From Amanita rubescens (Eukaryota > Basidiomycota > Agaricomycetes > Agaricales > Amanitaceae), in contig WION01000003.1 of assembly GCA_015039365.1 (NCBI GenBank), forward strand, positions 1,116,001-1,180,000: 64,000 nucleotides of DNA, in the 5' to 3' direction. The translations under genes were made by a program, and so were the position numbers. How positions within the stretch are numbered: the stretch's first letter is position 1; each line of letters starts with the position of its first letter. The notes beneath the pieces are model-generated. The model had not been told where the DNA came from. It searched no databases and was given only the letters and a program-made list of their open reading frames with translations. Of this stretch, positions 27,794 to 55,084 are shown one piece after another.

Positions 27794-27795
27794 TA
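27794..27795. repeat. Left TA target-site duplication
   Basis: TA immediately before the left terminal repeat, matched by TA at 55083-55084 after the right one. A single TA in the joined ORF preserves the frame (AAA CTA CGT). Confidence 0.75.
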
Positions 27796-27817
27796 TGACG
27801 GTCCGTATCGGACAAAA
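27796..27817 (+). repeat. Left terminal inverted repeat (22 bp)
   Basis: Begins TGACGGTCCG and ends CGGACAAAA. Identical to the reverse complement of 55061-55082; similarity ends abruptly afterwards. Confidence 0.85.
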
Positions 27818-28221
27818 CCTAATTACATGACTCGGCCATCCCGGTCAGCCGTGATCCGTCATGATTTTCCGTGATTGGTAGTGAATTGGCGTGATCCGTC
27901 ATGAACCATGGTGTACCGCGGTGGACGACCCCTCTGCATGCATTCCATGACACATAGTGAATCTCTTCCCATTATGTACCTCTAATCCATTAGTACCATG
28001 TATTTTTGCTCGCCCACAATGAACGACTGTTCCATTATCACCCTGAGATCTTCTTCATGTAGCTGTTCACGGTGTTCACCATGAGCCATCCCAGGAAAAA
28101 ATACCAAAACATGCCTTAGCAACCACCACCTGACATACGGCCCCATGTGCGGCTGGCAAAATATGGTCCCTAATGCCGCTGTAAACAGTTAATTTTCCTT
28201 CCTTCTCATCGTACTACCATC
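27818..28221. repeat. Left subterminal region with short CGTGA-type repeats
   Basis: Words such as CCGTGATCCGTCATGA, CCGTGATTGG and GGCGTGATCCGTCATGA recur within about 90 bp of the left end. Related words (GTGAACCATCGTGATC, GTGTACCGGCGTGAATC) fill the last kilobase of the right end. Such subterminal arrays often bind transposases. The rest holds the presumed promoter of the HECT-like gene. Confidence 0.5.
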
Positions 28222-31200
28222 ATGCCTCTCAACGCCCAAATTACCCAGTTGTTTCCTCTAGTCCCTCGTGATCGTTGCACACAAGAAGAATGTATGTCAG
28301 GCTGTAAAGGCACTGTCTTTGGAAGCGTAAGTGTTTATCATCGGCCTAAAGTTAAGTGGCCATTTACTTCCCTTCAGTTCCTTGCACAACGCGTCAAACC
28401 CAATGATGCGTCCGAGAGTTGCGCGTGCGGCCATCTTTATTGGCAACACTACCTGACCAGAGATGCACTGCGGCGCACCCCTGACATGTTGAATTTGTCA
28501 AGCGTTGTTCGTGCTTACTGTGCTGAAACTGGTTGTGGAGGCTTTTTGCCCCAGGTATCTATCATTAGAACATCAACATTTTTCCAGCTAAGCGATGGAC
28601 GCTCACAGGAGTCTACAACTAATATGAACTTGCACATGACCTGCATCTGCGGCGCACCGTACCTGCAGCACGTCCAGGATATTCCAGAGTAGGTCATAAT
28701 TCTCACTTACAATAGAGTTGTTCCCGACTCTTTTCTCTATCCAGTACCCCTCCTACCGCATCTGCTCCAATGCCGTCAACAGCTGTCATTCAACAGAGCC
28801 AAAACCCTCCAGCGCCAGTTCAAATACCCTCAGCCAGTTTTGGTCCGACCCGACCCGAGACACCACTAGCTGCAGTGCGCACCGTCAACACTAGATTTCC
28901 TTTTGTCCCACCTGTTGCTTCTTCCCTTTCGGCTTCACAGCAACGTCAGCTGGCTGCTGTTAGGCACCGCACAAGTAGTTTCGCTCGTGGCCAAAGTAAT
29001 GACGGAACAACTGCCCCATCCACTCCAAAGTCATCCTGGAAGATGACAGCGGCAACCTTGCCATTCAGACTAAAATGTGCCATTATCCCTTTTGCTGTAT
29101 GTCATTGCTTCTTAATAGTTATTGTCCATCCTACTTACCAAGCAGCACTTCCAGAACAAGACGGAAAAAAAGACTGATTCAGACTCTTCTCCCCATCCCA
29201 GCAACATGTTCCGATTCTCGGTTACCCAACGTAATGAACTGCTTTATCATCTTGCCAAGCAGGACTTGGTAATTGAAGTTAACCGACCAAATGAATCAGA
29301 AACTGCCTGGAGCGCCCTGGACAATCAGATCACTCGCCATCTCCAGGCGAACAATATAGCTATTCAAACCCCAAAGGAGGTGACTGACTGTCCTTATCTC
29401 AATATATGGTGGTGCCTTTGCCATCCTAGTCGCACCAACAAACCTGGAATGAGCAATTATCTACCGCACATTCCATCGGAGTATGATTTTACCTTTGATT
29501 ATTTACAAACCAAAGTAGCATGGCCAGACCCTATTCAGCAAGGCTATGGCGTCTTCTTTGTTGGTCAGTCAATCCATTACTCATCCTACCTCTCACTGAA
29601 TCAAAGCGCCAACTATCAGCTCCGGTTAAAACTAACCTGCAAGGTCCTTCCCCAGATTCAAACGATCCTAAACCGCACCCTTGTTGGCCGTGGCGTGTTG
29701 TGACACCTCTTCATGACTGGCTGGAAATAGATGAGGATTATCAACCCAATCCATGCATAGCGGAATGCTCAGATGACCTGGAAAACCAGGCGAGTGAGGT
29801 CTCAATTTCCCATGGTGATGACGACGATGTAAGTTTTGTTTGACCTTCTGTGACCCTCCATTGTGTCCTGACGTTAAATTATCAGTATATTCCTATGGAA
29901 CCCACTAGCCTACGCAAGCGACATTTACCTGTGACTGTCAATCCCCGCCCTCAACAGCGACTTCACATTAAAAGCCCTGGTCCATCTCAACCTCCTATTC
30001 CATCGTCTTCTAGTATGGTCCGCTCACAACGCGCTGTTCCCCTTCAACCTCCTATCCCATCGTCCTCTCGCCTGCCCCTAACCCAACGCTCTGGGCCCTC
30101 TCAACCTCCTATTCCTTCAACCTCTCGCGCATCACAAACGCTCTTCCTTCCTGATGAATCTTCGTCTGAAGACTCGGATGATCCTTCCACACCTCCTTCT
30201 ATAACTTCCCTGCCCCAACTTTCTGACTCCCTACAAGAACGTCAGATCAATCAATGGCAATTATGCGTTCAAACAGAAACCCACATACTGCGGGCAAGCA
30301 CTCCCCATATAACGGGTCCAAATTTCCATGCAGTTGCTACGGTTATTATTAATGCTCTCAAGTCGCTTGCAGAGGAAACCCCATTGCCAGACACATTAGA
30401 AGTGACAGTCAGCCACATTAACAATCTTTACTCACTATTTGTATCGCACCCGACGTTCCGCGTGTAGGTTCCTTCTTAATCTGGTTCGTTTTCATCGTTC
30501 TGACCACACCTGCCTATTTCTTTAGCGGCAAAACCTCAGGGGTTGGGCTCACACGTACCGTATATCGTGAAGCATTACAAATGTCTGTGGAGTCAGACAG
30601 ATGGATCCCAAGCACTAACAAGGGATACCATATCCTTCATTTGCCTGCCAACGTCTACCTTGATAACCGTGACCAAACAAAAGATTTTCAGGTTGAAGGC
30701 AATTTGGCCGCGCTCTATCTCTTGCACCTCGCAGTTGGTCCTGATCCGATTTCCCCCTTTGTTATCTTTGCCGCCTCCATCAACTCCTTAGACGAGTTCA
30801 ACTTCGATATCAACTTTGCAAGGGCTACCATACATGATCAGGAGACGCTCAACAAAATTGAATGCATTATGAACTTACGTCCTGATCAATCAGTTAATGG
30901 CGATTGGTTAGTTCAACTGGCCGAGGACGTTCAAGTCCAAGTACGCATTATCGGACTAGATCCATGAAATAACCCTTATTGATCTCTTCCAGTATCCACA
31001 TATCACCGGTCAACGCCCGTTTCATGTGCACCAGAAGATGCAAAAACAGATGCTTGCCACGATCCTTGTCGGCCATCGGGACCCTTGGGCCCATCCCTAC
31101 TTCAAAGCGTTCAAGGATGGTTTCAATTGTCTCGCATGGCGGCCCTTTCTGAAGGCCAGTTTGTTTAACCAAACCTATCAGCCCAGCTCACATGATAATC

Positions 31201-31812
31201 AGCATCCATACTTACCCTGGGATGAAGATCGATACCTGCAACGATTTCTCTCCACTGTCTATAATCGTCGCATTGATGATCCTGAAGTCATTGTTCCTTT
31301 AATTCATTGGCATGTTGCAAACCATAAACATCCGCTCACATCGACCCTTTGTAATTTGTTCATCATGCGCTTTAGACGATGGCTTAGCGGAATCGGGCAC
31401 CCTCGCGCTATGAAGAATGCGCAGATTACTTCAAAGCAATACTCGCAGGGACAATCTGACCGTGGTCTCCGAGCAAGGTTATTTCATCAGACAGTTACCG
31501 GATCCAAGTTGAGGTTATTAGGACGAGATGTGGACCGCATTATCCATGTATGCAGCATAAGTTATCTTTTCAGTGTTATTCATGACATAATAGGTTCAAT
31601 TGACCTACGAGCCGTGATGCGCAGCGGAAGAAGAAGTGCAATTCTCCGTTTGTACGAACACCCTCACTATCAAGATCAACAAAGCCGTTGCGAATCTTCT
31701 AGTGCAACCTGGAACTTTGGATCTTACTGTCGATGACAAGGAAGTTTGTACCGACTTTGATAAGTGGTGGCACACGCAAATGATTATTTCTGAAGATTTC
31801 AATGATTACTAG
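28222..31812 (+). CDS. HECT-like, Cys-rich multi-exon protein (element cargo)
   Basis: Multi-exon gene filling the left 4 kb of the element. The N-terminal exons (28222-28326 and from 28378) encode Cys-rich segments (CTQEECMSGCKG, CACGHLYWQHY, CAETGCGG, CICGAPYLQH), likely zinc-binding. A Pro/Ser-rich linker with four SQPPIPS-type repeats follows (29970-30130). The C-terminal part has GVGLTRTVYREALQM, resembling the start of a HECT ubiquitin-ligase N-lobe, then DPWAHPYFKAFKDGFNCL, and ends with FSVCTNTLTIKINKAV...FNDY, placing a Cys where HECT C-lobes carry the catalytic one. The HECT assignment rests on this spacing only. Internal junctions around 29100-29850 and 31540-31620 are not fully resolved, so intactness is unknown. 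Confidence 0.45.
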
Positions 31813-31929
31813 AATACACGATATTAGAGTGTAGTGTACGCACAATTCAATTGATTGACTTAGGTCTCAAAGAGAATAAGGTCGCACAAGCCACTAAAGC
31901 CACGGTCTTGCTTTGAAACATGCGCGTAG

Positions 31930-32791: not shown

Positions 32792-34164
32792 ATGTCTGAC
32801 AGACCTGTGGAGTGGGAAGTATGTCAGATGATGGACTTCAGTCGAATTGCACCTCCATTGACATCGTCTGCTCCCTCTTCAAGACTTCATATCGTCCTAA
32901 TGGTCTATACTCCACCCAGCCAGAAGACCGTTCCTAAGAAGAAGAGACACAGATGCGGTGAGTACTTCTGAGACATAGAAGTTGTTGTCTCAAACTAGTT
33001 CCAGGCAGGAAATGGTGAGCAGCAAAGGAACGCCAAAAAATGGTCGAGGAAGGGTATTCGAAAAATTCGCGAAAAACTGGATTAAAGCACGGGAAACCAA
33101 GCAAAGAATCCATACGAAAGAGGCGATCGAAGGATTCCCTCAGGATCAAGGCAGCACGAGAAGCAGCGGAGCGTTACTGGGGTACGTCATCACATTCGAT
33201 CAGACATAAATTATAATAAATCTCTTCAGAAACGTTTGTGGTTGCCGCGGCCCCAGGAGAACTGGTGAAATGCCGAAATACTCGAGAGGCCATGAGGGCG
33301 AAAATAATCAAATATGACCTGGATTATACGAAATACATCACCCAGACGGGAAGCGTGCACCTCCCATGCCCTCCTATATTTTTTAACTCCAATTCCGAAA
33401 AGGGTTACCTCCAATACATCGAAAAAAAATCGATTTTCTGTGGACTCGAACCCCATTTCTTGATCCACAAATTTGTAAATGTACTGAGCGATGGCCAAGC
33501 CCTGCGTTTGCGAAGGCAGTGGGAAAGTTTCATGGCGACGAACCCCGTGGCACATAAAACGTCCGGCACCCGGTCTAGCGGGACACCCTCGTACCACCTA
33601 GGGCTCTGGCGCCGAAGCAGCAACGTAGCATCTACTACATCGGACTTGAAAGGCAACATCCATCAGCGTACACAGTGCAAAAACTTCTTGCGATCGGTAA
33701 AGGGTTATGTAGCGCCTGCCTTAAACCGCTTGATGTCGCGTTATGCCAAGGAGGAATGGATGAAGAGGCAAACGTATGAGATCTTTGTATTGGGTTGCGG
33801 ACACGACTGACAACAGCATGGTAGTATGGCGAAATATATAAAGGATCAAGAGTTTATCAATGATTACCAGGAGATGGATTTCAACGGCGCGTTTACAATG
33901 GTCTCTGTGACGAACGGCGTCAGCGATATAATGCATACTGATAGGAATGACGGGGGACTAACATGGGTCCTGCCAATCGGGGAATGGGAGGGGGGGGACC
34001 TCTGTTTCCCCCAGTTCGGGATTACAATTCCAATCAAGCAGGGCAAAGCGATCGCATTCCAGGCGAATTTCCTGGCGCATATGAGTTCGCTCCTCGTCAG
34101 CGGTGATCACCTCGCTCTCACATGCTTCACCGACCGGTATATCCTGTTGGACTCGCAGGAGTGA
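32792..34164 (+). CDS. TET/JBP-family 2OG-Fe(II) dioxygenase
   Basis: Members of this family oxidise 5-methylcytosine or thymine in DNA using 2-oxoglutarate and Fe(II). Exons 32792-32957, 33020-33181, 33230-33773 and 33825-34164 sum to 1,212 nt (403 residues) with an open frame. A basic N-terminal region (KKKRHRC, ESIRKRRSKDSLRIKAAREA) could contact DNA. The core shows the iron motif HxD in DIMHTDRNDGG, then GEWEGGDLCFPQFGI, the distal His in FQANFLAHMS and a downstream Arg (CFTDRYI) for 2-oxoglutarate, the order expected of the double-stranded beta-helix. Fungal TET/JBP genes have been reported as expanded in mushrooms and linked to DNA transposons. Introns are 48-62 nt. This is one of three clearly intact genes of the element. 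Confidence 0.85.
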
Positions 34165-35290: not shown

Positions 35291-36895
35291 TCAATAGTCG
35301 TCCTCTCTTGCCTCCTCCTCTTTCGGCGTTACCAACTCATGCTTAATCGACAACGCTTTGACTTTGAGCTCGAAATCCTTGATTTTCCCGTACCGACCCG
35401 CATTCAATTTCACAGCATCTGTGAGAGGGGTTTCCAACAACTGCCTTGCTCGCTCCACGTATCGGTTATCTGGTTCTTTACATTCATTCTCCATATAATC
35501 CAACAAGGCCTCCGCATTCAATTTGATGGTGCGGTAGTTTCCGAATGTATAGGGACTTCTGTAAGGTTTCGAACCGTGTTTGAAACCCTCGACGACGTCT
35601 GCAATGCTAATGCGTCCATTCCCATGTCCTGCGGCGTGTTTCACGTGGACTGCGATGCCCCGTCTGCATGGAATATGCAATTCGTCGCAAATTTCGCTTA
35701 CGATACGAGGGCTACTTTGTGTCAAAACCTGGAAGACAGCATGGCTGTACCTTCCATCCAGGCACTGGACACCAACCATCAAGACAGACAGTTGGTGCGA
35801 CCCGCTGTTCTCCATGGGATAGTCAAAGGCCGAGGAAGATACGGCTGCTTTGCCTTTGAAGGTTATAGGGACGGATTCTTCTTCGTTCGCGGCCATCGCC
35901 AACGATCTGGATTGTACCTCTTTTTCTTTGCCTTTAGGGGAAGCATAGATGACTCCTCTATCATTCGCAGCGGCTATTAGTTTCTGAAATTGGTCGTCGG
36001 TCTGGTCTGGCAAGGTGACCTTGCTGTACAACGTATCGTATTGTGCAATATCCGTCGATTCTTGTCCCATTGATTCGTTCGGATGCGAATGTAAAATAGC
36101 GGATTCTTCTCCTGTGGACCCTGGCATGTCTGAGTCTATACCTGCCGGATACGGATTGGCCTCTGTGGTGGCGAGAACGTAACATCACGCACCTCCGCAC
36201 TGGGGTCCGTCAAAGTCAGTGGCGGTGAGGTCGATAACGTCTAAAACATATACGGTAAGTTCCCCGGCTTATGTAGAGAATGAAGAAATCTCAACCAGGT
36301 GCAGGTCCTCTGACAGTGTTGCCCGCGACCGAATCTGCCGCCAAAGGATTGCCTATATTTACGGTATTCAGTACATCATGGCCTTGCGGTAGAAAGCACC
36401 CACCACCTGACAAAGCCGATTCCATTGATCGCGTATCTGTCCTGTGTTCTATTGTGGTAGAGTCACATACCGCAATCTGCATATGTTTCAGTCACCTACC
36501 GCTTTCACGTATGGCGTTCGACGATGCCGCCGATTCCGGATTCAACGCGTTGCCTATTGCGAAATTAAGTTATAGCCATCTGGGAGTGGATCTCTGGCCC
36601 ACCATTTTCGATGGGCACACCCACTGATAATGATTCCGGGTTCGACGCGTTGCCTATAGCGAAATCAAGTGACAACCATCTTGGAGAGGATCTATAGCCT
36701 ACCATTTTCAATGGACGCACCCATTGACGACTCTGAACGCGCGTTTGTCGCGCTAACTCTCCGCGGTTGCGTGATAGGTTCCATAGGTTCATCCAGATTG
36801 AAATTCTCTTCTTGCCTTTGTGTAATCGGCACAATCGCTTGATCCCTGTTGAGTGGAGGTCTACGAGAGCGCCTGGATCGCGTAATGGTTGACAT
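35291..36895 (-). CDS. Intact hypothetical cargo protein, 445 aa
   Basis: No family recognised. Exons 36895-36703, 36653-36603, 36553-36500, 36448-36296, 36240-36193 and 36129-35291 sum to 1,338 nt and stay open for 445 residues, supporting a real gene. The N-terminus is Arg-rich (MSTITRSRRSRRPPLN). Exons 2 and 3 both begin GNA(S/L)NPES and are a tandem exon-plus-intron duplication of about 100 bp. The C-terminal two thirds contain a compact predicted domain (SPRIVSEICDELHIPCRRGI, VHVKHAAGHGNGR, YTFGNYRTIKLNAEALLDY) and end with an acidic tail EEEAREDDY. It is divergent from the integrase gene with 144 bp between start codons, so the two may share a promoter. Confidence 0.65.
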
Positions 36896-37039: not shown

Positions 37040-38815
37040 ATGGACCCCATCGAGAATCTGGAGCAGGACTTCTTACGCTTAGCGGAGAGGGTCCGATTGC
37101 ATCTACAGATACATGTGGGCGATGCTACACGATATCGACATTTGCACAATGAGGTGTTAGAATTCTTGAACAATGCTCGCCAGGTCAGTAGCTGATCATC
37201 ATTTTCATATCACGGCGTCTGACCTGCTGCAGTACCAGAACCAGCTTCCGGTAGATGACTATACAGCGCTGCAAGAGTCTCTGTCCACTATGATAGAATG
37301 TCTCCTTACTGCAGAGAACGAGGCGATGGACCCCCCTGCCCCCGGTTTGCAAGTTAGCCACAGGGTAAAAGGAAGGGTCGGACAACCGCGGGTCGAAATC
37401 GACAGGAACTTTTTGGAGAGCGCCTTGCAAGTTCGGGGTCCACACCAATTAGGGATGGTCATGAAGTGTAGCCCTAGGACAATCAGAAGGCGAGCGCTGG
37501 AATACGGTCTCAGAGAGGAAGCACCACCTGTGTTTCAGACAGTTCCTAACCCTGATGGAACCGTGTCTCAGACGTGGTTCTCATCGTCCACACCTACACG
37601 CTCTGCCGTCTCCGAAGACCCTGATGCGCTGGATGAGTTGGTCAGGTCTGTACTACATACATTTCCGAATTTCGGGCGACAAAAACTCGACGGTATGCTA
37701 AAAGCGAGAGGCTACCGCGTCACGAGGGAGCGACTCCGAGAGTCCTACGTCTGTGTACGTGGCGCGCCCGCACGCTTTGGAAGACCGCAGATTGAGAGGC
37801 GAAGCTATTACGTGCCAGCTCCGAACAGTCTTTGGCACCATGACGGGAACCACAGTAAGTGATAGACACACGCTTTCGTTTGGATACTCAGATGGTCGCA
37901 GAATTAATTTGGTGGGGAATAGTATGCCATGCATTCGTAGATGGAAAAACACGCCTTATCACTGCGGCTCAATTCAATGACAATAATCGGGCAGACACTG
38001 TGTTAGATGTATTTGAACGAGCCGTGAGATTACACGGTTTGCCAAGTCGAGTTTGTGGTGATCATGGGACTGAGAATGTAAGGGTGGCTGAACGTATGCT
38101 GGAACTACGAGGGAACGGGAGAGGCTCATATCTGTGGGGCCGGTAAGTGGTATCGGCATCTTCTTGCACAATCTGACACAGGCCTCCTCTCAGGTCTGTA
38201 CATAACACTAGATCCGAACGATTATGGGTGGATCTGGTCACCGATCTGTCCGATAAGTGGAGAAGATTCTTTCAGGACCTGGAAACTCACCACGGCATGA
38301 ACGCCGAAGATGGATATCACACATGGCTGCTCCAGCATCTGTTTTTGGATGAACTGAACCGGGAACTGCAGGAATGGGTCCAAAGTTGGAATCATCACAA
38401 GATGCAACTGAAAGGACAGTTAAACCAATTGCCAATAGAGATGTTCATGATGGGCATGGTTGAACGTGAAACTCCGGGCGTCCGTGAATGGATCGAACAA
38501 CAAGAAGAGGATGTCGATGACTTGCCCAACTACGGAGTGGCATGGGAAAATCTCGAAGATGAAGTTGCCCATAATTTGGAGAACGAGGGGGAGAATCAGG
38601 GGCCTTTCGAAATAGACAACCGACCTGAACAGCTTCACGACGTGGCGTGCGATCCTCCAGATTGCCCTCTGTCGGCGGTCGAGAAAGAGACGCTTGATGT
38701 GACGGTTGTTCATGAGTTTGGTGAAAACAAATTTCGAAGTATGCCGGAACGCATGCTGATCTGGAACAGAGCGTTTGATTTGTGCCGTGCGTTGATCCAG
38801 CAACGTGAAGGCTAG
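37040..38815 (+). CDS. DDE/rve integrase-core protein (candidate transposase)
   Basis: Exons 37040-37183, 37233-37854, 37902-38142 and 38194-38815 sum to 1,629 nt (542 residues), fully open. An N-terminal helical region is followed by a helix-turn-helix-like segment ([25 protein letters not shown]). The retroviral-integrase-like core has Asp in [28 protein letters not shown], a second Asp in [12 protein letters not shown] and Glu in [12 protein letters not shown], i.e. D, D, E. The C-terminus is acidic. Related integrase-core proteins are widespread in agaricomycete genomes, usually without known function. It is the only intact protein in the element with an obvious strand-transfer fold outside the nested retrotransposon. 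Confidence 0.8.
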
Positions 38816-40603
38816 AGGGGTCCCGACAAATGTTGGTTAGTCAATACGTTTTTTGGCAGGACTTTTGCTCATGTATTCCTCAGATTCAAGTGGAAGTGCA
38901 GTGGGAGACGGCATTGGTCAGATCTTCGAGTATGAACAATACTAGGATATCGTAGACTCACGTATTTCGTTACAAGTTCTGTTAGAATCTCCTGCGGCGG
39001 AGAAAACTCACTTGACTGGTACCCTCTACGAGTACGCCCACCGGAGAAAGGTGTACCAAAGAACGTTATTAGCCATGTTTCCTAGTATCCCCCACCCATT
39101 GCCGAGGATGAGTCTGAAGGTGCCCATGTTTCAGTCCAAAGCCCGCATATAAAGTTCGCTGGTCTCCCCCCCGAATTCACATCGTGGTATTCAACTTGTA
39201 CGACGGACTGGCAAAATGCTCCGTGCCCTTGACCTCTGTCTCGATCGATAGATGTCGACAATGTTGAGCGAAAGGCAAGGTTTTGTGTTATCTTCTTTGA
39301 TTATCGTTTCCTCATATACTATCCAGGCAACCCTAATGGTTTCGTGAAGAACATATTGAAATAAATAAGCCCAACTTATTGAAAGAGTCTCGATGAAGCA
39401 GAGCTATGAGCCATATATAGGCGGGTTCAGTCTCATTCTCCTTGTTTTACTAGAGGAATTGAAGCAACGATTACGATGAACTCGAGGTGATGGGCGCAAG
39501 ATGCAGTGACATTGACGGGTGACGGGTCGGCTCCGGAGCAGAGGAAGTCCAAGCACAGGAGTGGTAGCGGTACATTATGCACCTTCAATTCTCCCATTTC
39601 AACCCCAAGATAGTTGCGAACCTACTGATCTCTCTGAAGTTGTAGATCCGTCCTAGAATTCAGATGCATACTTCGAGGAGGGCGAGGTGGACAACACGGG
39701 GGACTCTAAGCCCTCCGCACTACTGTCATTTCAATAATCACAACGGTCGTTGTACTCGCGTTCAATCGCGAGTACGGCTCTATTTGGGCGGTGAAACAAT
39801 AAAGAGAAGGCCGACGTGGAACAGTGTTCGGCCAAAGGGGCTACGGAGGTCTGACCGATGTGCTTAAGTGCGATAGAGTGCCGAGAGCGAAGGAGAAGGA
39901 ACGGAACGGTGACCGAGTCACCGAGCGAGAAGGAGAACGGAAATCGGACGCAAGGGAACGAGAAAGAGAGCGGAAGTGAGACCGGCTGTATATTCGATGT
40001 CCAACTACTACAGACAATGCCGTATATATACTACGAGGACATGAGGCTTACCTGCGACGAGCCTTCCTCCGAGTCCGTTGGTCCGTGCGCATCTAGGTGC
40101 CCCGTTGCGTTCGAATATCGCTCAAGTTGCGGGAATGGCCCTGTCGGAATGTGGCCGAATCGTTGGCGCGAAGGTTTGACTTCGGAAGCTTCCGTGATGC
40201 GTGATGTGATGCCGAGAATCGGAATGCGGTGCGCTTCGGTGTTCGGTTCCAACGTAGCCGGAACCGGCTCGTTACAGCGGGAACTATCGCTTAGTACACC
40301 ACAAAACGCGAAGACCTTTATATTTGCGCACCCAGCAAGAGAATTAACACTCACTTAGCACTTTACCTCGTAAACGTTCATAAGCAGGGCTTTCAAAAGT
40401 GAATAAGGTTGCACTGACTGCGAGAATTAATTCTCACCATCACTTAGGACTTTAATCCTACCATCCAGTGTAATCCTTCGCAGCCACTGCGTACAAAGGT
40501 GAGTGCATTTCTGTGTGCTTCACTGACAGCGAGAACCTTCAACCGACCGTGATTTCGTACTTGATTTCAGGTCTCACTAGAAATCTGTCTGACGAAATTC
40601 GTA
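38816..40603. other. Long spacer without convincing gene
   Basis: An overlapping pair of frames at 39858-40358 (+) and 40031-40354 (-) is open but matches no known protein; the plus frame is Arg/Glu-rich low complexity. From about 40413 the sequence contains two leader-type repeats (CTGACTGCGAGAAT at 40414, CTGACAGCGAGAAC at 40523) that precede the acidic-repeat gene. Confidence 0.35.
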
Positions 40604-44535: not shown

Positions 44536-45046
44536 TGTTACAAACACGGTACGGACTCCTACATTATGAATACATGACACGTCGGACATGCTTACTTTTT
44601 CGCATATGCCTACCCCTTCGTCACATTCCCATTATGTTCATCAAACGGACTACTTCGTTCTCTTATCAATCCCCATTCCGTTTACCCCATGCCCAATCCC
44701 TTGTTCATACGCGTACCATCCCTTATGCCCCTTGTTTTACCTATACTTGCTATCGCCCTTGTTCTACTTACGATACGGCTGTGTTTCTGTACATGTATAT
44801 AAACCGATGTACTGTAACGTCGAACCTTAAGTTCGACTTAACTGTCTTTATCAATATCACTTCATCTCAAAGAACGTCGTTTCTACTCCGTTCATTATCG
44901 CTCTCAAGGATAAGACTTCTTCTAGTCGTCTTATCACTTAGCTTATTCGTTCACCTATTGTTTGACTTGTCCGTTGGACTTAGTCTACTTTGTCAAGCGC
45001 TCTTAGCGTGGACACATCGTAGGTGGAGATTGACGTGATCATAACA
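44536..45046 (+). repeat. 5' LTR (511 bp)
   Basis: Begins TGTTACAAACACGG and ends GATCATAACA (TGTTA...TAACA). Holds a TATA box at 44796-44803 and predicted R start near 44829. A 167-codon frame inside both LTRs is not considered a gene. Confidence 0.93.
44796..44803 (+). promoter_or_regulatory. TATA box of the LTR promoter
   Basis: TATATAAA, 33 bp before the AAGTTCGAC that is complementary to the primer-binding site. Confidence 0.65.
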
Positions 45047-45047
45047 A

Positions 45048-45061
45048 TTAAGTCGAACTTA
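45048..45061 (+). other. Self-priming primer-binding site
   Basis: TTAAGTCGAACTTA, one base after the LTR, is the reverse complement of 44828-44841 at the predicted mRNA 5' end. This is the Tf1/sushi-type self-priming arrangement, in which the RNA 5' end primes reverse transcription instead of a tRNA. Confidence 0.75.
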
Positions 45062-45877
45062 TCAAAAAACGATACCCGAGTATTACCTCGTTGGTGAAAC
45101 ACAAGATAACTATCGAACTTCCGGAGAACCGGCCCGTAGGTTACCGGTCAGCTTGCAACAATTTCGGATCAACAGAGGACACCGCCTAACCGTGCTACAA
45201 GAGGAACAAGAGGACATTATTATCTAGATCACATTGCTATCTACAACGACCCTAAGGACCACCTTTGGAAATACTCGAAAGACCACAGTCTTGTACCAAC
45301 ATCAGAGTTTTGGATACCACAGAGAGCCAACAGACCACCCAACAACGCATTCTATCATCAATTCAACGACAAATACTATCTCCTAGGATTTGAAGTCGAA
45401 TTCGACGAAAATACCAAACGTTGGGGAGGATATAACCCAGGCTCTGAATCAGAACTCACATACGAATTTGTACCAGACGATTTCTTCAAAGGACCAAAGT
45501 GGATAGAAGGAAACCCAGATAACCTACCCGAAAACCTACAGCACAAAAGCGCAGTCTCTACACCGAAAGCAACAGTCAAGGATACACCAAAAGGTAAAAC
45601 TTTTGGAGTAACAGAAGAAAGCGAATCAGGAACCGAATCAAGTGACGAAAACCCCGATCAGCAATTCGAAAGTTCCAGTGACCTTTCCGAGTCGGAAGAT
45701 AAAACTGTTCCAGACTTACTTAGCCCAATCGATTTCAACCCGTTTGAAACAGAACAGGAGAAACCGAATTCCCCAGGACTTCAATACATAGAAGTCGATC
45801 CTAAACCCGATCCTAGTCCAGGACCACCAGTACCACCAAAACTGCCTACACCACCTCCAGAACCACCAACAGTTACA

Positions 45878-46882
45878 ATGACGACGCCAGCAATACAGCC
45901 AATTCCTAGTCTCTTAGGAGAAATCCCTACCTTCACAGGAAAGCGATCTCAAGCACAGGATTTCATAGATCGAATGGAGCTATTCCTAGATCTCAATCCA
46001 GGTCGCATCAACACAGATAGACTTAAAATCGGACTGACGTTATCTATGATAACCGATAAAGCTGAGAACTGGAGACGTAATCAAAACGACGATCTTAACA
46101 ATGCAGCAAAGACGGAGATAACGTGGAACGACTGGACAGGATTCAAAACCAGATTCCTCAACAATTGGCAAGAAATAGATTCACCCGGAAACGCGTACAC
46201 AGAATTAGTACAGCTTCAAAAACGCAAAGACAAGAAAGGAAAACGAATCTCAATCCCAAAATACGTTGGTTTATTCAAAGAACTTATAAAGAAAGCCGGA
46301 ATCACAGGCAGTGCCGCTACCCACATGTTCGGACAAGGACTCGACGCCAACACGTACAGAGCAGTCGTAATGAGAGACCCCAAAACCTTGGACGAATGGT
46401 ACGAAGGAGCACTCAGAGCGTACAACGCCGAAGCACGCATTGGCATTCTAGCAACCAACAGAGGAGGGACATCTTCGCACAAACCCCCTCGAAACGAATG
46501 GGATATGGATCTCGACGCAATAATTCTTGGCGCGTTATCAAAGGATGAACGAACCCGACATATCCGTGATGGACTTTGTTTCATATGTCATAAACCAGAT
46601 CACATGTCAGGACAATGCCCCATGAGGAAGGATAAAGGATCTTACAAAGGGAAGAAGAAGTTTAATGGAAAGAAAGGAAAGAAATTCGCACACGGTCGTC
46701 ATATTCGAGCAACCGAAAGGGATGACGATGGCAGTAACTATGAAGACGTCGAAGAGTCTAGCCAGCAAGAACAAGAAGAAGAAGAAGACACTAGCGACAG
46801 AACGATACGCGCTATGTTAAAGAAACTCTCTCCAGATCAACGTATCAACCTCCTTATCAACGCAGATAAACCGGATTTTTGA
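45878..46882 (+). CDS. Gag-like polyprotein with CCHC zinc knuckle
   Basis: 334 codons from the first ATG after the predicted transcription start. It contains the Ty3-type capsid region (PSLLGEIPTFTGKRSQAQDF, WNDWTGFKTRFLNNW, VGLFKELIKKAGI, FGQGLDANTYRAVV) and a C-x2-C-x4-H-x4-C knuckle (CFICHKPDHMSGQC) followed by a Lys-rich and then an acidic tail. The same frame is open without stop upstream to 45140 (246 codons, acidic and Pro-rich) but has no ATG, so an N-terminal extension from a non-AUG start or spliced leader is possible. Overlaps pol by a few bases. Confidence 0.88.
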   Translation: MTTPAIQPIPSLLGEIPTFTGKRSQAQDFIDRMELFLDLNPGRINTDRLKIGLTLSMITDKAENWRRNQNDDLNNAAKTEITWNDWTGFKTRFLNNWQEIDSPGNAYTELVQLQKRKDKKGKRISIPKYVGLFKELIKKAGITGSAATHMFGQGLDANTYRAVVMRDPKTLDEWYEGALRAYNAEARIGILATNRGGTSSHKPPRNEWDMDLDAIILGALSKDERTRHIRDGLCFICHKPDHMSGQCPMRKDKGSYKGKKKFNGKKGKKFAHGRHIRATERDDDGSNYEDVEESSQQEQEEEEDTSDRTIRAMLKKLSPDQRINLLINADKPDF

Positions 46883-49800
46883 CAGTGGGACACATGTCAG
46901 TGGATGCATGTCCCATAACTTCGGATTCAACTCCAAAGGACGATCTTTCGATATCACCTGTAATAGTACGTTCTATTTCAAGCAATCGATTATCTATTCC
47001 CCTCGAAGTTGAAACCGAAGACAACACTGAATCAATGACTGCACTGGTCGACAGCGGTGCAGAAGGTTTATTTATCAATTCATCAATCGCGCATAAATGG
47101 AGAAGAAAGAAACTCGCAAAACCAATCCGAGTCAAGAACATTGACGGCACATACAATACAAATGGAGAAATTTCCGACAAGTGTTTGATCACCATCGATA
47201 TCAATGGAAAGAAGATGACCGAATGGTTCTTGGTCACTTCGCTTGGCGATCAAAACTTGATACTGGGGCTTCCGTGGCTCGAGAAGCATGACCCAATCAT
47301 AAGCTGGAGGAATAGAACTCTGGAGTTCCGTAACTCCAAAGAAGACGAATGGAAGGCATCAATACGGAGCATCTTGCATCGACTCGATGAAGAAGCAATG
47401 CCTAAATGGGAAGAAGACGTCGTAATTCGGTATTTGTTGTCACACAAAGGACCAGAAGAGAAGAGTCTACATTGGAAACCACCATTTGAAGACATAGGAA
47501 GATGGACTGAAGAAGATTATGACAAGATCACGATTAATCGCTACTCACCAGCTCAACAAATGGAACATAAGTACAACACCGATCAGAAGGAAATCACGCT
47601 ACCTCCTGAGTATCTCGAATGGAAAGAGATATTTGAAAAACAAGCGTCAGAACGATTCCCAGACCGCAGATCATGGGATCACGCAATTGAACTTCGCGAA
47701 GATTTTATACCAAAGAAAGGGAAGATCTACCCAATATCACCATTACAACAAAATACGCTTGACGAATGGATCAAAGAACAACTAGCTAAAGGATATATAC
47801 GACCATCCAAATCTCCGCAGGCAGCGCCATTCTTTTATGTCGAAAAGAAGGATAGCAAAACACTCAGACCCTGCCAAGACTACCGATACTTGAACGAACA
47901 CACGAAACCAAACTCTTACCCCTTACCACTCATATCCGATCTGATGCTACAACTTAAAGGATCGCAATACTTTACGAAACTAGACATCAGATGGGGATAC
48001 AACAATGTTCGCATCAAAGAAGGAGACGAATGGAAAGCCGCATTTATCACGAATAAAGGACTATTCGAACCGACAGTTATGTTCTTTGGATTACGCAATT
48101 CACCAGCAACATTTCAAGCAATGATGGACGATTACTTCAGGGACTTCATGAACGAAGGATGGATCGCCATTTACATGGATGACATCTTGATACACGCGCG
48201 CAACAAACAAGAACTCGAGAAAAGAACAAAGCTAGTACTCGCAAAACTGAAAGAACACGATCTTTACCTAAAACTTGAAAAATGCAAATTTGCCGCCGAA
48301 GAAGTGGACTTCTTAGGCATGATAATCACAAAAGACACAATAAAAATGGATCCAATAAAACTCGCTGGAATCAGAGACTGGCCCCCTCCGACAACAGTTA
48401 AACAAGTACGCTCGTTTCTTGGATTTGGAAATTACTACAGACGTTTCATATCCGGATTCGCGCACCTCGCACGACCCCTTCACGACTTAACGAAGAAAAA
48501 CAAGATATGGGAATGGACACTAGAATGTAGAGTCGCCTTCGACTCATTAAAGGAAAGTTTCGTAACGGCACCAGTACTAAAGATGCCAGATGTCAATCAA
48601 CCCTTCATACTCGAAACGGACGCATCTAAATGGGCTGTCGGAGCCGCCTTAATGCAGAAAGACGAAAACGGAGACTTACACCCTTGTGGATATCTCTCAC
48701 ACGCACTTACGCCTACTGAACGAAATTGGCAAATCTACGACCGAGAGCTTTTTGCCATAATTTACGCCCTTGACGAATGGAAATATCTACTGCTTGGAGC
48801 AGAACACACACTCACTATACACTGCGATCACAAGAACTTAACCTATTACCGCGCACCACAACGTCTCACAGCTAGACAAGCAAGATGGTGGAATAATCTC
48901 TCAAGATATAATTATCAACTAATTCACGTTCCTGGAGCAAAACTAACTCAAGCGGACGCCTTATCCCGCCGACCTGATCACACTAATGGAGAAGAAGATG
49001 ACGAAACAGTCACGATGCTCCCTGACTCACTATTTATCCAAGTCATCGCCGAAGATCTCCGAGATCAAGTAAAGAACGCAACTCAAACCGACGAGTTTGC
49101 TGAAACCATTAGAAGATGCTTAAAGGAGAAAGGAACAGCACCCCTTCGCACAGCAATCACCGATTGGACCGAAGATAACGGAATCATCCTATTCAAAAAT
49201 AAGGCATACGTTCCATTAGACTCCGATCTTCGCCGATCTATTATCAAAGAATACCATGAAGCACCGAGTGCAGGACACCCTGGATTCTTCAAAACACTTA
49301 GCCTACTAAGGGAACACTACTGGTGGCCTAGAATGACAACACTTGTCAAAAGTTTTATCGACGGATGTCTTACCTGTCAACAGATGAAACCTAATACGCA
49401 TCCCACCGCCGCACCCCTAATGCCGATTAAATCCCACGCACACCGACCATTTCAACAGATTACCATGGATTTCATCACCGATCTACCGCCTAGTGACGGT
49501 TTTGATTCTATCTTTGTCGTGGTCGACCAAGGACTTTCAAAGGGAGTAATTCTATGTCCCTGTAATAAAACTATTACATCAGCTGAAACCGCCGACCTCT
49601 ACATCAAAGAAGTTTTCAAGAACTTCGGATTACCAGACATTATGATATCTGACAGAGGACCGCAATTCGCAGCAAAAGTCTTCAAAGGGATAACCAGCGC
49701 ACTTCAGATCAAACACAAAATGAGCACCGCCTTTCACCCTCAAACAGATGGACAAACGGAACGCTATAACGCCGTACTTGAAGTATACCTCCGCATATTC

Positions 49801-50496
49801 TGCGCCTATGAACCAGACAAATGGAATAAGATACTTCCTATCGCGCAATTCGCTCATAATTCTAGAACGCATGAAGAACTGAAACAATCACCGTTCTATC
49901 TCATGTATGGATCTAACCCTGTGGCACTACCCCAGGTTACAGAACAGTCAGCTACCCCCGTAGCAGACGAACGCATCAGACTCCTGATCAAAGCAAGAGA
50001 AGAAGCTCTGGCAGCACACGACCTTGCACGTCTCAAAATGGCACAACGAACGATGAAACACTCTAAACCGTTCAAAGAAGGAGAAAAGGTTTGGCTAGAT
50101 TCAAAAAACCTACGCATTCCTTATCAATCACGTAAACTCGCACCTAAACGAGAAGGACCCTTCAAAATAAAGAAAGTCTTAGGACCTGTCACCTATCAAT
50201 TAGACTTACCTAAACAATGGAAGATACACAGCGTTTTCCACGCATGTCTACTGTCACCATTTAAAGAAACAGAATTCCATGGACCTAATGACACACGTCC
50301 ACCACCCGATCTAATAGAAGGATCAGAAGAATACGAAATAGAAGCTATTCTCGCACACCGAAAGATCGGACGTCAATTACAGTTTCTCGTCAAATGGAAA
50401 GGTTATGATACAAGCGAAAACACTTGGGAACCCCAAAGGAACTTGTCAAACGCCGAGGATATCCTTGACGAATATAAGAAACGTAGGAAACTCTGA
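46883..50496 (+). CDS. Pol: protease, RT, RNase H, integrase, chromodomain
   Basis: Open in the -1 frame relative to gag from 46879, the first ATG being at 46894. In order: aspartic protease ALVDSGAEGLFINSS; reverse transcriptase with FFYVEKKDSKTLRPCQDYR and the YMDD active site; RNase H beginning ETDASKWAVGAALMQ; integrase with HHCC zinc finger (HPGFFKTLSLLREHYWW ... CLTCQQMK) and DDE residues in MDFITDLP, SDRGPQFA and QTDGQTERYN; a C-terminal chromodomain (YEIEAILAHRKIG ... FLVKWKGYDTSENTWEP). The chromodomain places it among the chromoviruses. About 1,200 residues with no frame break. Confidence 0.94.
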
Positions 50497-50542
50497 ACAA
50501 GCAAAGATTACACCTACAACGCCCAGAAAATACCTATGAATC

Positions 50543-51250
50543 ATGAAATCAACAAGAACCTCACCCACGATCTCGCCAACAACGACGAGAGCACCATCAC
50601 CGGAACCGCCCATATACTCAGTCTTTACCCAGACAACGACGACAACACCACCACCACCGCCGAATCCCCCAATACATCCAGTAATCAGGATGCTAGCGGA
50701 AGGACAACGATCGCCGAACCCAATAGGCCACGTCTCGTTCCTTATCACAGCGCTTCAGATTCTGACAAAGAGAATCGATCTGATGATTCACCCAGAACAA
50801 GCCGAGCTACGAGTACTCACGATACCACAGAAGATCAAGGTAACGGAAGACATAATGAAGATACAAGGAGAGCTAGGAAAATACTTGATAACATGCGAAA
50901 GGTATATCATAACCCCGACTCTTTTGCCGAATTCGACAAGGAACCAACTGGCAATCTTCGCAACAGAAGCGATGATAACAACCCAGCTAGCCCTAGCAGT
51001 CATCGAATCATGGCAGACATCACTCCCTCTGAACCTCAGACGATCTTTACGACATTCGCAGACTATAACAGCTCAGCTCTTATGCGAAAGACTATTGACG
51101 ACATTAAAAGACTTTCCAGCCTGCCAATCAATTCTCAGGAACTGGAACGACTTACCAGACTCTGGCGTATTCTCTCAGACGCAAGACTCGCCAAGGCAAT
51201 CATCGTCAACGCCCGAGAACGATACAACTATCACTGCGCAGATCTTATAG
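50543..51250 (+). CDS. Accessory ORF A of the retrotransposon
   Basis: 235 codons starting 46 bp after the pol stop. The N-terminus is Pro/Thr-rich (SPTTTRAPSPEPPIYSVF), then helical and Leu-rich (NPIGHVSFLITALQILTKRIDLMIHPEQ). No family recognised. It overlaps ORF B in another frame; amino-acid composition looks more protein-like here than in the competing frame. Confidence 0.5.
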   Translation: MKSTRTSPTISPTTTRAPSPEPPIYSVFTQTTTTTPPPPPNPPIHPVIRMLAEGQRSPNPIGHVSFLITALQILTKRIDLMIHPEQAELRVLTIPQKIKVTEDIMKIQGELGKYLITCERYIITPTLLPNSTRNQLAIFATEAMITTQLALAVIESWQTSLPLNLRRSLRHSQTITAQLLCERLLTTLKDFPACQSILRNWNDLPDSGVFSQTQDSPRQSSSTPENDTTITAQIL

Positions 51251-52251
51251 AGATCTGGACCAACTTAGATCGTATGGAATGGTACACCAAACTCTCTCAT
51301 GGATGCACCATCCACCAATTCGGAATCGACCTTTTACGCCGAATCCTCGCTGCTGACGTAGAACGCTTCTACGAACAAGCCATCTTAGACGTCAGGAATG
51401 AAGCACACCCTCCATTCATCCTTAATGACGACCCCAACGATCTCGTCGCCATCCATCATAGCTTTGACTCTCACAGGATCGCACCAGACGCACAGCATGT
51501 CTTAGAACTCACGAACCGAACCGAAATCGGAGCAATCGCTTTAGTAGATCTAGCAGATCGAATCAAGGAGATCGCCGAATCTTCTAGATGGACTACCGCA
51601 TGGACAGAAGACCTGTTTACCAAAGGAGCTAAACCGCAGCAACTCTCTCACAATGCCTATGAAGAAGTTGCTCACGTCATGATGGAATTAGATCTCCATC
51701 AGAATCTTATACCTTCTACGCCCGTCACTCAGACCGCTGAAAGATTTAAGAACCTCGGACGCTCGCTCATTCCCCAACACAACCTTTACCGACTATGGAA
51801 GGGAACGCAGAACAGACCCAACAGGCCCCAACCATCTCCAACGCTGCGTCGGCTTCCACCCCAACCGCCTTTAGCATCGGCGCCTTCGACGGACGAGAAC
51901 GCCTCGCCCGCATTCACCAGGAAATCTCGGATTTCCTCCACTACCAGTCTCACGTCCGGCTTTTCGCCGCCACATCCCTACCGCCAACAGTCCCTCGTCC
52001 CGACGACGAATCAAAGGAGCGCATCATCAAGCTCCTCAAAGAAGAGAACCGACGTCTCAAGGTTCTCCACAAACTCCTCAACTCGCTTGAGGCCAACAAC
52101 GAAGAACTCGTCCAAACGTATACGGACACACCCACCGACTGGAACGCAGGAGGATGGAACCAAGACGAATGACTTCGACGTCTTCGTCGACAGCTCAGCC
52201 GGCTATCATCCCTACGACGATGAAAACGCCCGCCACAACCTCGATACCTAG
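51010..52251 (+). CDS. Accessory ORF B of the retrotransposon
   Basis: The frame is open from 50536; ATG 51010 is the first after ORF A's likely core. It encodes a helical protein (FADYNSSALMRKTIDDIKRL, LERLTRLWRILSDARLAKAI, MEWYTKLSHGCTIHQFGIDL). The part after about 51790 is Ser/Thr/Pro low complexity and overlaps ORF C, so the true end may be earlier. Function unknown. Confidence 0.45.
   Translation: MADITPSEPQTIFTTFADYNSSALMRKTIDDIKRLSSLPINSQELERLTRLWRILSDARLAKAIIVNARERYNYHCADLIEIWTNLDRMEWYTKLSHGCTIHQFGIDLLRRILAADVERFYEQAILDVRNEAHPPFILNDDPNDLVAIHHSFDSHRIAPDAQHVLELTNRTEIGAIALVDLADRIKEIAESSRWTTAWTEDLFTKGAKPQQLSHNAYEEVAHVMMELDLHQNLIPSTPVTQTAERFKNLGRSLIPQHNLYRLWKGTQNRPNRPQPSPTLRRLPPQPPLASAPSTDENASPAFTRKSRISSTTSLTSGFSPPHPYRQQSLVPTTNQRSASSSSSKKRTDVSRFSTNSSTRLRPTTKNSSKRIRTHPPTGTQEDGTKTNDFDVFVDSSAGYHPYDDENARHNLDT
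51795..52172 (+). CDS. Accessory ORF C of the retrotransposon (coiled coil)
   Basis: 125 codons: ISDFLHYQSHVRLF, then a coiled-coil-like stretch (RIIKLLKEENRRLKVLHKLL). Ends 128 bp before the 3' LTR. No homologue recognised. Confidence 0.5.
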   Translation: MEGNAEQTQQAPTISNAASASTPTAFSIGAFDGRERLARIHQEISDFLHYQSHVRLFAATSLPPTVPRPDDESKERIIKLLKEENRRLKVLHKLLNSLEANNEELVQTYTDTPTDWNAGGWNQDE

Positions 52252-52287
52252 AGGATACCCGCATATTGTTGTTGCGGTCAACAACGT

Positions 52288-52296
52288 AGAGGAGAG
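52288..52296 (+). other. Polypurine tract
   Basis: AGAGGAGAG just before the 3' LTR, the expected plus-strand primer site. Confidence 0.55.
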
Positions 52297-52300
52297 CTAG

Positions 52301-52811
52301 TGTTACAAACACGGTACGGACTCCTACATTATGAATACATGACACGTCGGACATGCTTACTTTTTCGCATATGCCTACCCCTTCGTCACATTCCCATTAT
52401 GTTCATCAAACGGACTACTTCGTTCTCTTATCAATCCCCATTCCGTTTACCCCATGCCCAATCCCTTGTTCATACGCGTACCATCCCTTATGCCCCTTGT
52501 TTTACCTATACTTGCTATCGCCCTTGTTCTACTTACGATACGGCTGTGTTTCTGTACATGTATATAAACCGATGTACTGTAACGTCGAACCTTAAGTTCG
52601 ACTTAACTGTCTTTATCAATATCACTTCATCTCAAAGAACGTCGTTTCTACTCCGTTCATTATCGCTCTCAAGGATAAGACTTCTTCTAGTCGTCTTATC
52701 ACTTAGCTTATTCGTTCACCTATTGTTTGACTTGTCCGTTGGACTTAGTCTACTTTGTCAAGCGCTCTTAGCGTGGACACATCGTAGGTGGAGATTGACG
52801 TGATCATAACA
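52301..52811 (+). repeat. 3' LTR (511 bp)
   Basis: Reads the same as the 5' LTR along its whole length by eye; followed by GTGAG at 52812-52816. Confidence 0.93.
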
Positions 52812-53149
52812 GTGAGTAGAGAGCTCTCGTGACCGCATTGACCGCGAGAACTGATATAAATTAGTACTCTCCTTCTACAACCACCATCACCACATCCGAA
52901 CGAGAGTAGGGCCTTATTTTCTTCAACCGCGAGAACTTCGAACACTCACTCGGCACTCCACCTGTACTACAACCACAAAACACGCGAGGAGCGTTTGATC
53001 TGTTTCACCGACCGCGAGAATTGAGCCTCAACCAGCCATCTCCAATTCAAAAGATCCGAAGGTGAGTACGGGCTTAAATTACTCATCGAGTGCAAAAACT
53101 GACGGCGATTAGTAACTACCACTACAAAAGCGACCCTAAAAGATCTTCA
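52812..53149. repeat. Repeated leader units of the acidic-repeat gene
   Basis: GACCGCGAGAAC-type blocks occur at 52838-52851, 52923-52936 and 53007-53021, separated by AC-rich stretches with CCACCATCACC-like words and GTGAGT. They match units at 44340-44530 and 40410-40540. They may be non-coding exons/introns of a long 5' leader. Confidence 0.5.
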
Positions 53150-53631
53150 ATGTCGGAAATGTGAGTATTCATTTTATTTTATTGACTATCGGTTTGATTA
53201 TCGCAGCAGGTCTGGATCGCCGACACTGGAGGGAGGAATAGAGGCGGAGAACAACGGCGGTCATGGTAACGGTTCTTCGGTGCGTGCTAGAAGTAATTTT
53301 ACTGCTTGTCATCGTGCTAACAATGCATTACTACTAGGTTCCATCTACATCCTATTCTCTGGACACCATTACCAACCTTGGCGGCGAACACACCACTGGC
53401 CTGAGCCTCGAGAACGACGACGGTTATGATGCTGACACGGAGGACAACGGCATAGATGCGTCGTGCTTCGGTGATCAGTACACCACCAGCGCCGAGCACA
53501 ACGACGGTTACGATGCCGACGAAGAAGACAATGCCAACTCGTCGGGCCAGTATGATAGCCTCATCAACCAAGTGGAGCGCGACGACGAGGGTTACGACGC
53601 CGACGACGAGAACGCCAGAGACGGGCTGTAG
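53150..53631 (+). CDS. Small acidic (N)DDGYDAD-repeat protein, 125 aa
   Basis: Exons 53150-53160, 53207-53279 and 53338-53631 sum to 378 nt and remain open. The protein is mostly acidic and carries three repeats: NDDGYDADTEDNG, HNDGYDADEEDNA and DDEGYDADDENAR. No signal peptide or membrane segment. Same architecture as the broken copy at 40604-41037 (ATGTCG start, short first exons, GTGAGT and GTGCGT donors). Function unknown; presence of two copies within one element suggests element-specific cargo. Confidence 0.6.
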
Positions 53632-54215
53632 ACAGTTCGGCCGCAATCCCGCTTTCACTTTCTTGCACCCTCTCTACATTTATACTTGCTCTGTTATCCT
53701 GCTATCAAGACCGGCACTCATTGTAAAGTATTATACTGTACATATATGTGATTATTAATTGTTGATGTGATCTAATTCTAACTTCTCAATCATTATAGCA
53801 CATTAGTAGCCTAGAGGCTGTCCTGCCGCGGTCAAGGTTGTTGCGGCAAGACGTCATCAGGAACAATGAAGCGGATTATCTAACATAGCAACCCGGATCT
53901 GTGGCCGGCTTTTCATTTCGCCACAGATGTAGAGATTAATTCACAATGACTTAGAACTTGTGCTAATGTATGGAAGATTTTGCGTATTTGGAAAGAGGGA
54001 GTGGATGACAGTGGGCGAATTTGGTATGGTTACGATGGTTTGAAATGGGCTGGAGGCGCATGGCTCACGCGGACTCACGCTTAACATGCATTTATCATGC
54101 CCACAATGGCCCACGGCCAATCACGGCCAATCACGTCAGTCCACGTTGCTTCACGCCGGTCCATGGTGGTTCACGGTGAAACATGATGAATTTGTGAAAA
54201 AGCATGGGTTTTGTA
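53632..54215. other. Spacer toward right end, CGTGA/CACG word repeats
   Basis: No gene seen. From about 54050 short words such as GGCTCACGCGGACTCACGC, CCACGGCCAATCACGG and GGTTCACGGTGAAAC recur, related to the left subterminal repeats. Confidence 0.4.
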
Positions 54216-55082
54216 TGAGTGTCCATATCGGACAAAATTCAGTTGTATGTTGACAATAGATAGTGATCACGACTGTTCATCGACGTTCATCGTGAACTGC
54301 CGTGTACCAGTGTGAATTGCAGTGTACCGGCGTGAATCGTCCTTCGCATGCCAAACGTGAACGTGAACCATCGTGATCACGATCAGCTGACATAATATTC
54401 CCACAATTCGCCAATTCGCCAATTCAAACTTTCTATCATATGTAGGGCACAAAAATAGATTAGTTGAATCCGTGTAGGCAGGGCTGGTCGCGTACTAGAG
54501 CAATGCGACGCGAAACAAGAAAGAAAGTGAGGCTTTGCAGGTTTTGGCGCGGTTTTTTCGAGTGCGATTCTGTGCGAAGTGCGACTAGGGACGCGATGAG
54601 CTCAGCGTTCCGAGTCTCCATGGTCAACGGAGACAACATCGACTACGACACATCTAAATCATCCCGTCCATCTTTTTCTCCACTCAACCTCGCAATCTCC
54701 GAAATCAATCTCCACAAATACACCGTCATATCTTCCTTTCTCCAAAACCTCTTACTCCATTCCCGTCCGGCCCTACCAATTTCCCTCACCAGCTCATCTT
54801 CACCATCTCGTCCGGAGATAGCCTTCGCTCTCTGCTTGGGTACCTGGTCATCAACGGGTTCTAGCAAGGCGAAAGTTTCATCCAAGGCGTGCAGGACTTT
54901 CGTTTGAGCTGAATCGTGGGAATCTTATGTCAGCTGATCGTGATCACGATGGTTCACAGCAATTCACGCTGGTACACTGCGATTCACGCTGATTCACGCC
55001 GGTACACGGCGGTTCATAATGAACAGTCGTGATCACTCCTTATTTTCAACCTGCAACAATTTTTGTCCGATACGGACCGTCA
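54216..55082. mobile_element. 867-bp inverted-repeat segment at the right end (MITE-like)
   Basis: 54216-54237 matches the element TIR in 19 of 22 positions, in inverted orientation to the right TIR. The similarity of the two arms continues for more than 200 bp (AGTGATCACGACTGTTCAT, ATCGTGATCACGATCAGCTG, GTGTACC.G.GTGAAT). The middle (54643-54885, minus strand) holds a captured coding-like stretch (DETFALLEPVDDQVPKQRAKA ...). It may be an internal end duplicate or a short non-autonomous relative sharing the right terminus. Confidence 0.5.
55061..55082 (-). repeat. Right terminal inverted repeat (22 bp)
   Basis: TTTTGTCCGATACGGACCGT plus CA; exact reverse complement of 27796-27817, followed by TA. 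Confidence 0.85.
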
Positions 55083-55084
55083 TA
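55083..55084. repeat. Right TA target-site duplication
   Basis: Pairs with 27794-27795. Confidence 0.75.

Follow-up and report, generated by a model that had tools for sequence, protein, structure and literature searches.

A probable IS3EU/GingerRoot-type transposon carrying TET/JBP and putative HECT-like genes in the mushroom Amanita rubescens

What kind of element accounts for a 27.3-kb insertion that begins and almost ends with a perfect 22-bp inverted repeat in the genome of Amanita rubescens? We addressed this question in a 64,000-nucleotide (nt) stretch of contig WION01000003.1 (C223:1116001–1180000; hereafter the window) and across the assembly (75.7 Mb, 786 contigs). A first reading of the letters alone (the original prediction) had described a giant terminal inverted repeat (TIR) transposon, inserted in another repeat with a TA target duplication and carrying a cargo that matched no named group. 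The insertion into another repeat is borne out by an interrupted reading frame, a target duplication and a second copy. The element is, however, a variant within a known transposon class and not an unnamed group, and its apparent giant size is partly due to other elements nested inside it. On the basis of its sequence features, the full body of evidence is best explained by an IS3EU/GingerRoot-type cut-and-paste DNA transposon with a core of about 17.7 kb, a reading to which we give a probability of roughly 0.87.

The element runs on the forward strand from 27794 (TATGACGG...) to 55109 (...GTCATA), 27,316 bp as it stands (C223:1143794–1171109), and its ends and duplications were read in two copies. 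Its left terminus (TATGACGGTCCGTATCGGACAAAACC; 27794–27819, +) is preceded by GACACG (27788–27793) and its right end is followed by the same six bases (55110–55115); uninterrupted paralogues of the target (loci L032–L034) back this 6-bp target-site duplication. The TA that had been taken for the duplicated target is the terminus of the element, and the true right end lies 25 bp past the boundary first proposed (55084). These last 25 bp (...TTGTAAGTCATA; 55085–55109, +) are split from the body by a nested 871-bp insertion, whose own target duplication forms their first six bases; the right end shared with the second copy occupies 55098–55109, and GACACG follows. The first 21 bases of the left terminus (TATGACGGTCCGTATCGGACA) occur at 127 genome sites with three or fewer mismatches, compared with 0 for the reversed control, which shows that this end sequence is not a product of chance.

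On the minus strand, the insertion divides a frame of the target repeat into a left part (27439–27793) and a right part (55116–55541). Joining the flanks through the 6-bp duplication gives 260 codons from stop to stop, whereas joining them through TA gives 271; the TA join is 33 nt longer and, because 33 is a multiple of three, is in frame too. The reported in-frame rejoining thus does restore the reading frame, but with 33 extra nucleotides. Three uninterrupted paralogues (on C104, C198 and C396), 99.5–99.75% identical over 800 bp around the junction, have 260-codon frames and the junction that a 6-bp duplication predicts, not the TA join; they are paralogues of the target repeat, not an empty allele of the window locus. 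The 925 uninterrupted codons claimed for the rejoined gene were not reproduced. Instead, the frame across the junction ends at a stop at about 27439 and a separate 593-codon frame lies at 25404–27185, which makes an intron in the disrupted gene likely.

The class of the element is indicated by its transposase (37040–38815, +), predicted to comprise 542 amino acids (aa) in four exons. It contains an rva_4 integrase core (Pfam PF24764, E 2.7e-58), in agreement with the rve-type enzyme of the original prediction, with the D-D-E residues assigned by eye, and it matches the NCBIfam models for IS481 (E 7.5e-12) and IS3 (E 7.7e-6), both below curated cut-offs. Pfam scans of the element covered 18 frames of at least 150 aa, whole or partial, with short frames and exons mostly outside them. 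Polintons (Mavericks) also have a 6-bp duplication, an rve-fold integrase and a comparable size class, and they carry PolB, ATPase and capsid genes; the hallmark of Starships is a DUF3435 tyrosine recombinase. As had been noted, the scanned frames lack these hallmarks: they contain no PolB, FtsK-type ATPase or capsid, nor DUF3435, for which no dedicated search was made. No alpha-kinase was found in them either.

The IS3EU/GingerRoot class is defined, in the part of PMC10045372 consulted, by features that include TA..TA termini. The termini here read TATGAC...GTCATA in both copies, with TATGA ends in the related elements that were read. The 6-bp duplication typical of the class matches in eight separate insertions and fails to match in four copies of a sister family (B) with both ends read, and the transposase is of the IS3/IS481 DDE kind. 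It is the combination of TA..TA ends, 6-bp duplications and an IS481/IS3-like rve transposase that places the element in this class. TET-carrying IS3EU elements have been reported from rusts and one truffle (2025 survey, PMC12730594, sections consulted). Those of rusts and Tuber indicum resemble the present element in their TA..TA ends, 6-bp duplications, IS3EU-type transposase and TET/JBP passenger, but the host here is an agaric and the element has a HECT-like partner (gene G1). In the rust elements, moreover, TET lies between the transposase and an alpha-kinase, whereas here it lies between G1 and a gene termed G3; the rust and truffle elements have TAYGG ends with TIRs longer than 30 bp, in contrast to TATGAC and short, imperfect TIRs here; and the TET protein here has HxD and so is not of the PE type (PMC12730594, same sections). 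Styx of Zymoseptoria likewise combines a fungal IS3EU-like transposase, extra genes and 6-bp duplications, but measures 7.9 kb and adds two genes that carry GATA and CCHC motifs plus one unknown gene, and the part of PMC10853768 consulted mentions neither TET nor HECT. The Kyakuja (KDZ) elements of mushrooms also carry a TET/JBP passenger in Agaricomycetes, and some relatives of gene G5 of the present element lie near KDZ transposases; Kyakuja elements differ in transposase, 7-bp duplications, absence of TIRs and CA..TG ends (PMC12730594, same sections). An open-access literature search found no paper describing the present element.

A search for a second copy with both ends succeeded on contig C76, where a 99.5% identical element (C76:9849–28062), 18,214 bp as it stands, is flanked on both sides by GTATTC and ends in ...TTGTAAGTCATA. 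Relative to this copy, the window copy has three extra insertions, each missing from C76. The largest is a Ty3/Gypsy chromovirus (44536–52811, +; 8,276 bp) with Ty3 capsid, reverse transcriptase, RNase H, integrase and chromo domains, 511-bp long terminal repeats (LTRs) without a difference and a 5-bp duplication, GTGAG. A 485-bp insertion (39792–40276, boundaries set by eye) is solo-LTR-like, with TG..CA ends and a 4-bp duplication, GCGG. The third, the 871-bp element (54214–55084; duplication GTTTTG), belongs to the same end family as the large element, has no transposase and shows zero differences from a copy on C520; relatives on C123, C77, C520 and C784 have matching 6-bp flanks. On C520 and C635, the 871-bp element adjoins partial copies of itself. 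The C76 copy has an insertion of its own, of about 0.55 kb, inside G3. Without nested insertions the core is about 17.67 kb in the two-copy comparison; the predicted 27.3-kb span is therefore real but inflated by the 8,276-, 485- and 871-bp insertions.

Alignment of the two copies over 17,665 positions shows 90 differences. Of these, 80 are C-to-T or G-to-A changes in the window copy and 6 are such changes in the C76 copy. CpG sites, which hold 24.4% of all C and G, account for 76 of the former (binomial p 1e-41) and 4 of the latter. Family B could be aligned at 31 of the window-side sites, where it shares the base of C76 in 24 cases, that of the window copy in 3 and that of neither in 4. Replacements between the copies number eight in the transposase and seven in the compared TET exons, with no early stop in either copy. 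Because the window-side CpG changes are balanced between strands (38/38) and show no neighbour-base bias (chi-square p 0.69), hypermutation of the kind seen in repeat-induced point mutation, or of the TCG type, is disfavoured and plain CpG deamination is preferred. According to section 4.2 of PMC12730594, hypermutation was not detected in Agaricomycotina and CG methylation in Agaricus bisporus is almost confined to transposons. The simplest reading is that methylated CpG in the window copy underwent ordinary deamination. Such decay argues against TET having fully protected this copy. Alternatively, the asymmetry may not stem from methylation in place: the window copy could have decayed elsewhere before it moved, or the C76 lineage could have been protected by chance. 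The changes are undatable, and the target flanks have about three C-to-T-type changes in about 2.6 kb relative to each paralogue, as decay elsewhere would allow. Nevertheless, the 10 non-CpG differences in 17,665 positions point to a recent separation of the copies and B places the decay on the window side, and we regard this alternative as somewhat unlikely.

The ends of the element bear on two further readings. In one, the 27.3-kb stretch is now mobile as a composite that uses the left end and the right end of the nested element. These two ends share the perfect 22-bp repeat (27796–27817 and 55061–55082), with TA outside both arms, and match at 24 of 26 bases including TA, compared with 18 of 26 for the large element's own pair. 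However, no copy with such an end combination was seen, a search with the inner right arm recovered it whole only in the window and in C76, and C76 carries the native right end; such mobility is improbable. The other reading is that of the original prediction: one element of 27.3 kb, bounded by 22-bp TIRs and a TA target duplication, which would account for the perfect TIRs, the TA on both sides and the in-frame join. The perfect repeat is indeed present, but its right arm is supplied by the 871-bp element, which is identical to its C520 copy and has its own duplication, so the left end of a large element had been paired with the right end of a small one nested in it. The right end shared with C76 lies 25 bp farther out, and the uninterrupted paralogues fit the 6-bp join. 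We consider this reading very improbable.

Within the transposon, the gene adjoining the left end is G1 (28222–31812, +), a multi-exon gene, with exon structure set by hand, for a divergent protein that may be HECT-like. Manual merging and dropping reduced 97 transposase rows to 39 loci and 88 G1 rows to 41, and neighbours were tallied on such hand-merged rows within a 15-kb radius; the underlying genome searches scored the best candidates only, so these and the other family counts are lower bounds. The transposase lineage is usually accompanied by this gene: 28 of the 39 transposase loci have a G1 relative in that radius, and a transposase match lies equally close to 27 of the 41 G1 loci. Several of the 11 transposase loci without G1 in that radius are single-piece matches, and some of the paired loci have a transposase identity of 40–51%, with a gap between G1 and the transposase there of 0.4–1.8 kb. 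By sequence, G1 resembles nothing found: it gave no match to HECT in Pfam scans, PDB profile searches or profile comparison, and none of the 34 genome matches to the HECT family falls at a G1 locus. For a template-free model of the G1 relative P0008 (mean pLDDT 59.5; residues 131–210 at 85–91), HECT domains fill 13 of the first 14 Foldseek rows and 45 of the 50 VIA rows listed, each match being weak alone. Near the C-terminus, five of six loci read have a cysteine within SVC, HTC or STC, with a similar stretch after it (SVC in B and in family A, that of the present element; HTC on C9, SVC on C12 and STC on C42); no HTC-like cysteine motif was found downstream of C153. One locus reads HTCF, the signature of HECT, in which the C-lobe cysteine lies in an HTC-like motif. 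The HECT-like assignment of the original prediction thus gains some support from the modelled fold and the cysteine motif, but none from sequence search. An open-access literature search found no account of a HECT-like partner of IS3EU, and the stem 'transpos-' is absent from the consulted text of PMC5913265.

The predicted TET/JBP dioxygenase gene (32900–34164, +; N-terminal exons uncertain) has an HTD...H motif. Here, too, relatives uphold the earlier assignment: all six members of a set (A6) match the Tet_JBP domain, with a best E of 8.3e-6, whereas the window protein itself scores 0.0021, below the cut-off, and P0003 gave no match. Residues H217, D219 and H265 (HxD...H) are invariant. A profile search of the PDB returned CMD1 and Tet-like dioxygenases as best matches, and a single-sequence search returned nothing; a model built from six sequences was poor (mean pLDDT 35.2). 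The HTD (HxD) of the window protein rules out the PE type, the hallmark of which is HxE instead of HxD (PMC12730594, section 3.4). At CcTET positions 331 and 337, which in the AG type are Gly/Ser and Asp, an ungapped count gives D and V; CcTET is not among the four PDB hits of the profile. Only 2 of the 39 transposase loci, namely those in the two copies of the present transposon, have a TET/JBP gene within 15 kb. Among the genome's TET matches (50 rows, 32 after manual merging and dropping), the closest other relatives are 51–71% identical by piece, and one, on C181, is 2.8 kb from a KDZ transposase. A second TET group, with the motif HIDANDHGITW, is about 31% identical to the window protein and consists of closely similar copies on C276, C67, C25, C24 and C640 (L056–L058, L060 and L063). 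On C64, C516, C638 and C85, TET and G5 are separated by about 9.2–9.4 kb, with no match to this transposase or to KDZ within 15 kb; the two genes may travel together in another element too.

Three further features complete the element. G3 (35291–36127, −), of unknown function, has related DNA in family B. G5 (41781–43760, +; MLLAPLGPFDGR...), also of unknown function, has relatives in 56 of 68 rows, the 12 weakest short rows having been removed, and C784, C211, C79 and others are counted more than once; 11 of the 56 are near this transposase type and 6 near KDZ transposases. An acidic-repeat open frame (53338–53628, +; GYDAD repeats) matches no family. Family B, whose transposase is 84% and 77% identical to that of A over its two halves and whose C771 copy is about 14.7 kb, has G1, G3-like DNA, the transposase and G5, with no TET match within 15 kb of its eight main transposase loci. 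C146, with a transposase 73–85% identical over three larger matches and 54% over the first exon, has G1 and no G5 or TET match within 15 kb. Distant relatives thus have transposase and G1, and family A has transposase, G1, G3, G5 and TET, which suggests that G5 and G3 were gained first and TET last; alternatively, TET may have been lost in B instead of gained in A.

Copies of B (C771:6075–20821, C103, C201, C27 and C223:281806–296549) share flanks in exchanged combinations. This is the result of recombination or assembly chimerism and spoils B as a clean test of duplications; of the five copies in which both ends were read, C223:281806 alone is flanked by matching 6-bp sequences. It also lends some colour to the view that the window element is an assembly artefact or chance join of repeats, given that C771, C103 and C201 share a left flank and have three different right flanks, and that C27 and C223:281806 share a right flank. 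Nonetheless, a distinct matching pair of 6-bp flanks surrounds the element both in the window and on C76, and the joined target is seen in three paralogues, which leaves an artefact highly improbable. KDZ elements of the Kyakuja type usually carry TET in mushrooms, and the C181 TET gene and the six G5 rows near KDZ would suit an element of that kind, but the transposase here is rva_4, none of the 126 genome matches to the KDZ transposase (PF18758; 64 places after manual merging and dropping) is on C223, and Kyakuja makes 7-bp and Dileera 8-bp duplications (PMC12730594, sections consulted); we give this reading next to no credence.

Elsewhere in the window, frames at 2729–8302 and 10005–10943 encode glutamate synthase (GATase_2, Glu_synthase, GXGXG and Fer4_20) and an MSS51_C protein, so the repeat cluster adjoins ordinary host genes. 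Past the right flank (57256–60410, +), four open frames of 176–292 aa have no Pfam match at E 0.01 and are perhaps part of the target repeat.

Returning to the IS3EU/GingerRoot-type transposon, class knowledge suggests that its rve-fold transposase would act on the TATGAC... ends and insert them at a 6-bp stagger, moving by DDE cut-and-paste. The element landed in a repeat gene with duplication of GACACG, and the window copy holds a Gypsy retrotransposon, a solo-LTR-like piece and the 871-bp relative that are absent from C76. The HECT-like partner might be a ubiquitin ligase that targets either the transposase or the host's silencing factors, and the TET protein, possibly captured from another transposon class, would oxidise methylcytosine on the element; nearly everything that sets the window copy apart from C76 is lost CpG sites, the pattern expected if that copy had been methylated. 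A bolder reading, which we hold somewhat less likely than not, is an undescribed mushroom branch of IS3EU with a standing, fast-evolving HECT-type ligase gene that may control the transposase or silencing proteins, one branch of which would have added a TET gene outside the three types reported from transposons (PU, AG and PE), perhaps acquired from a KDZ element. If this reading is true, a single transposon would attack host control on two arms, ubiquitin and DNA methylation. The main text of PMC12730594 as consulted places TET-carrying IS3EU elements in rusts and a single truffle, with none reported in mushrooms. The two recent copies described here, one CpG-decayed and one near-intact, allow a direct check on whether a TET gene borne by a transposon shields it from methylation.

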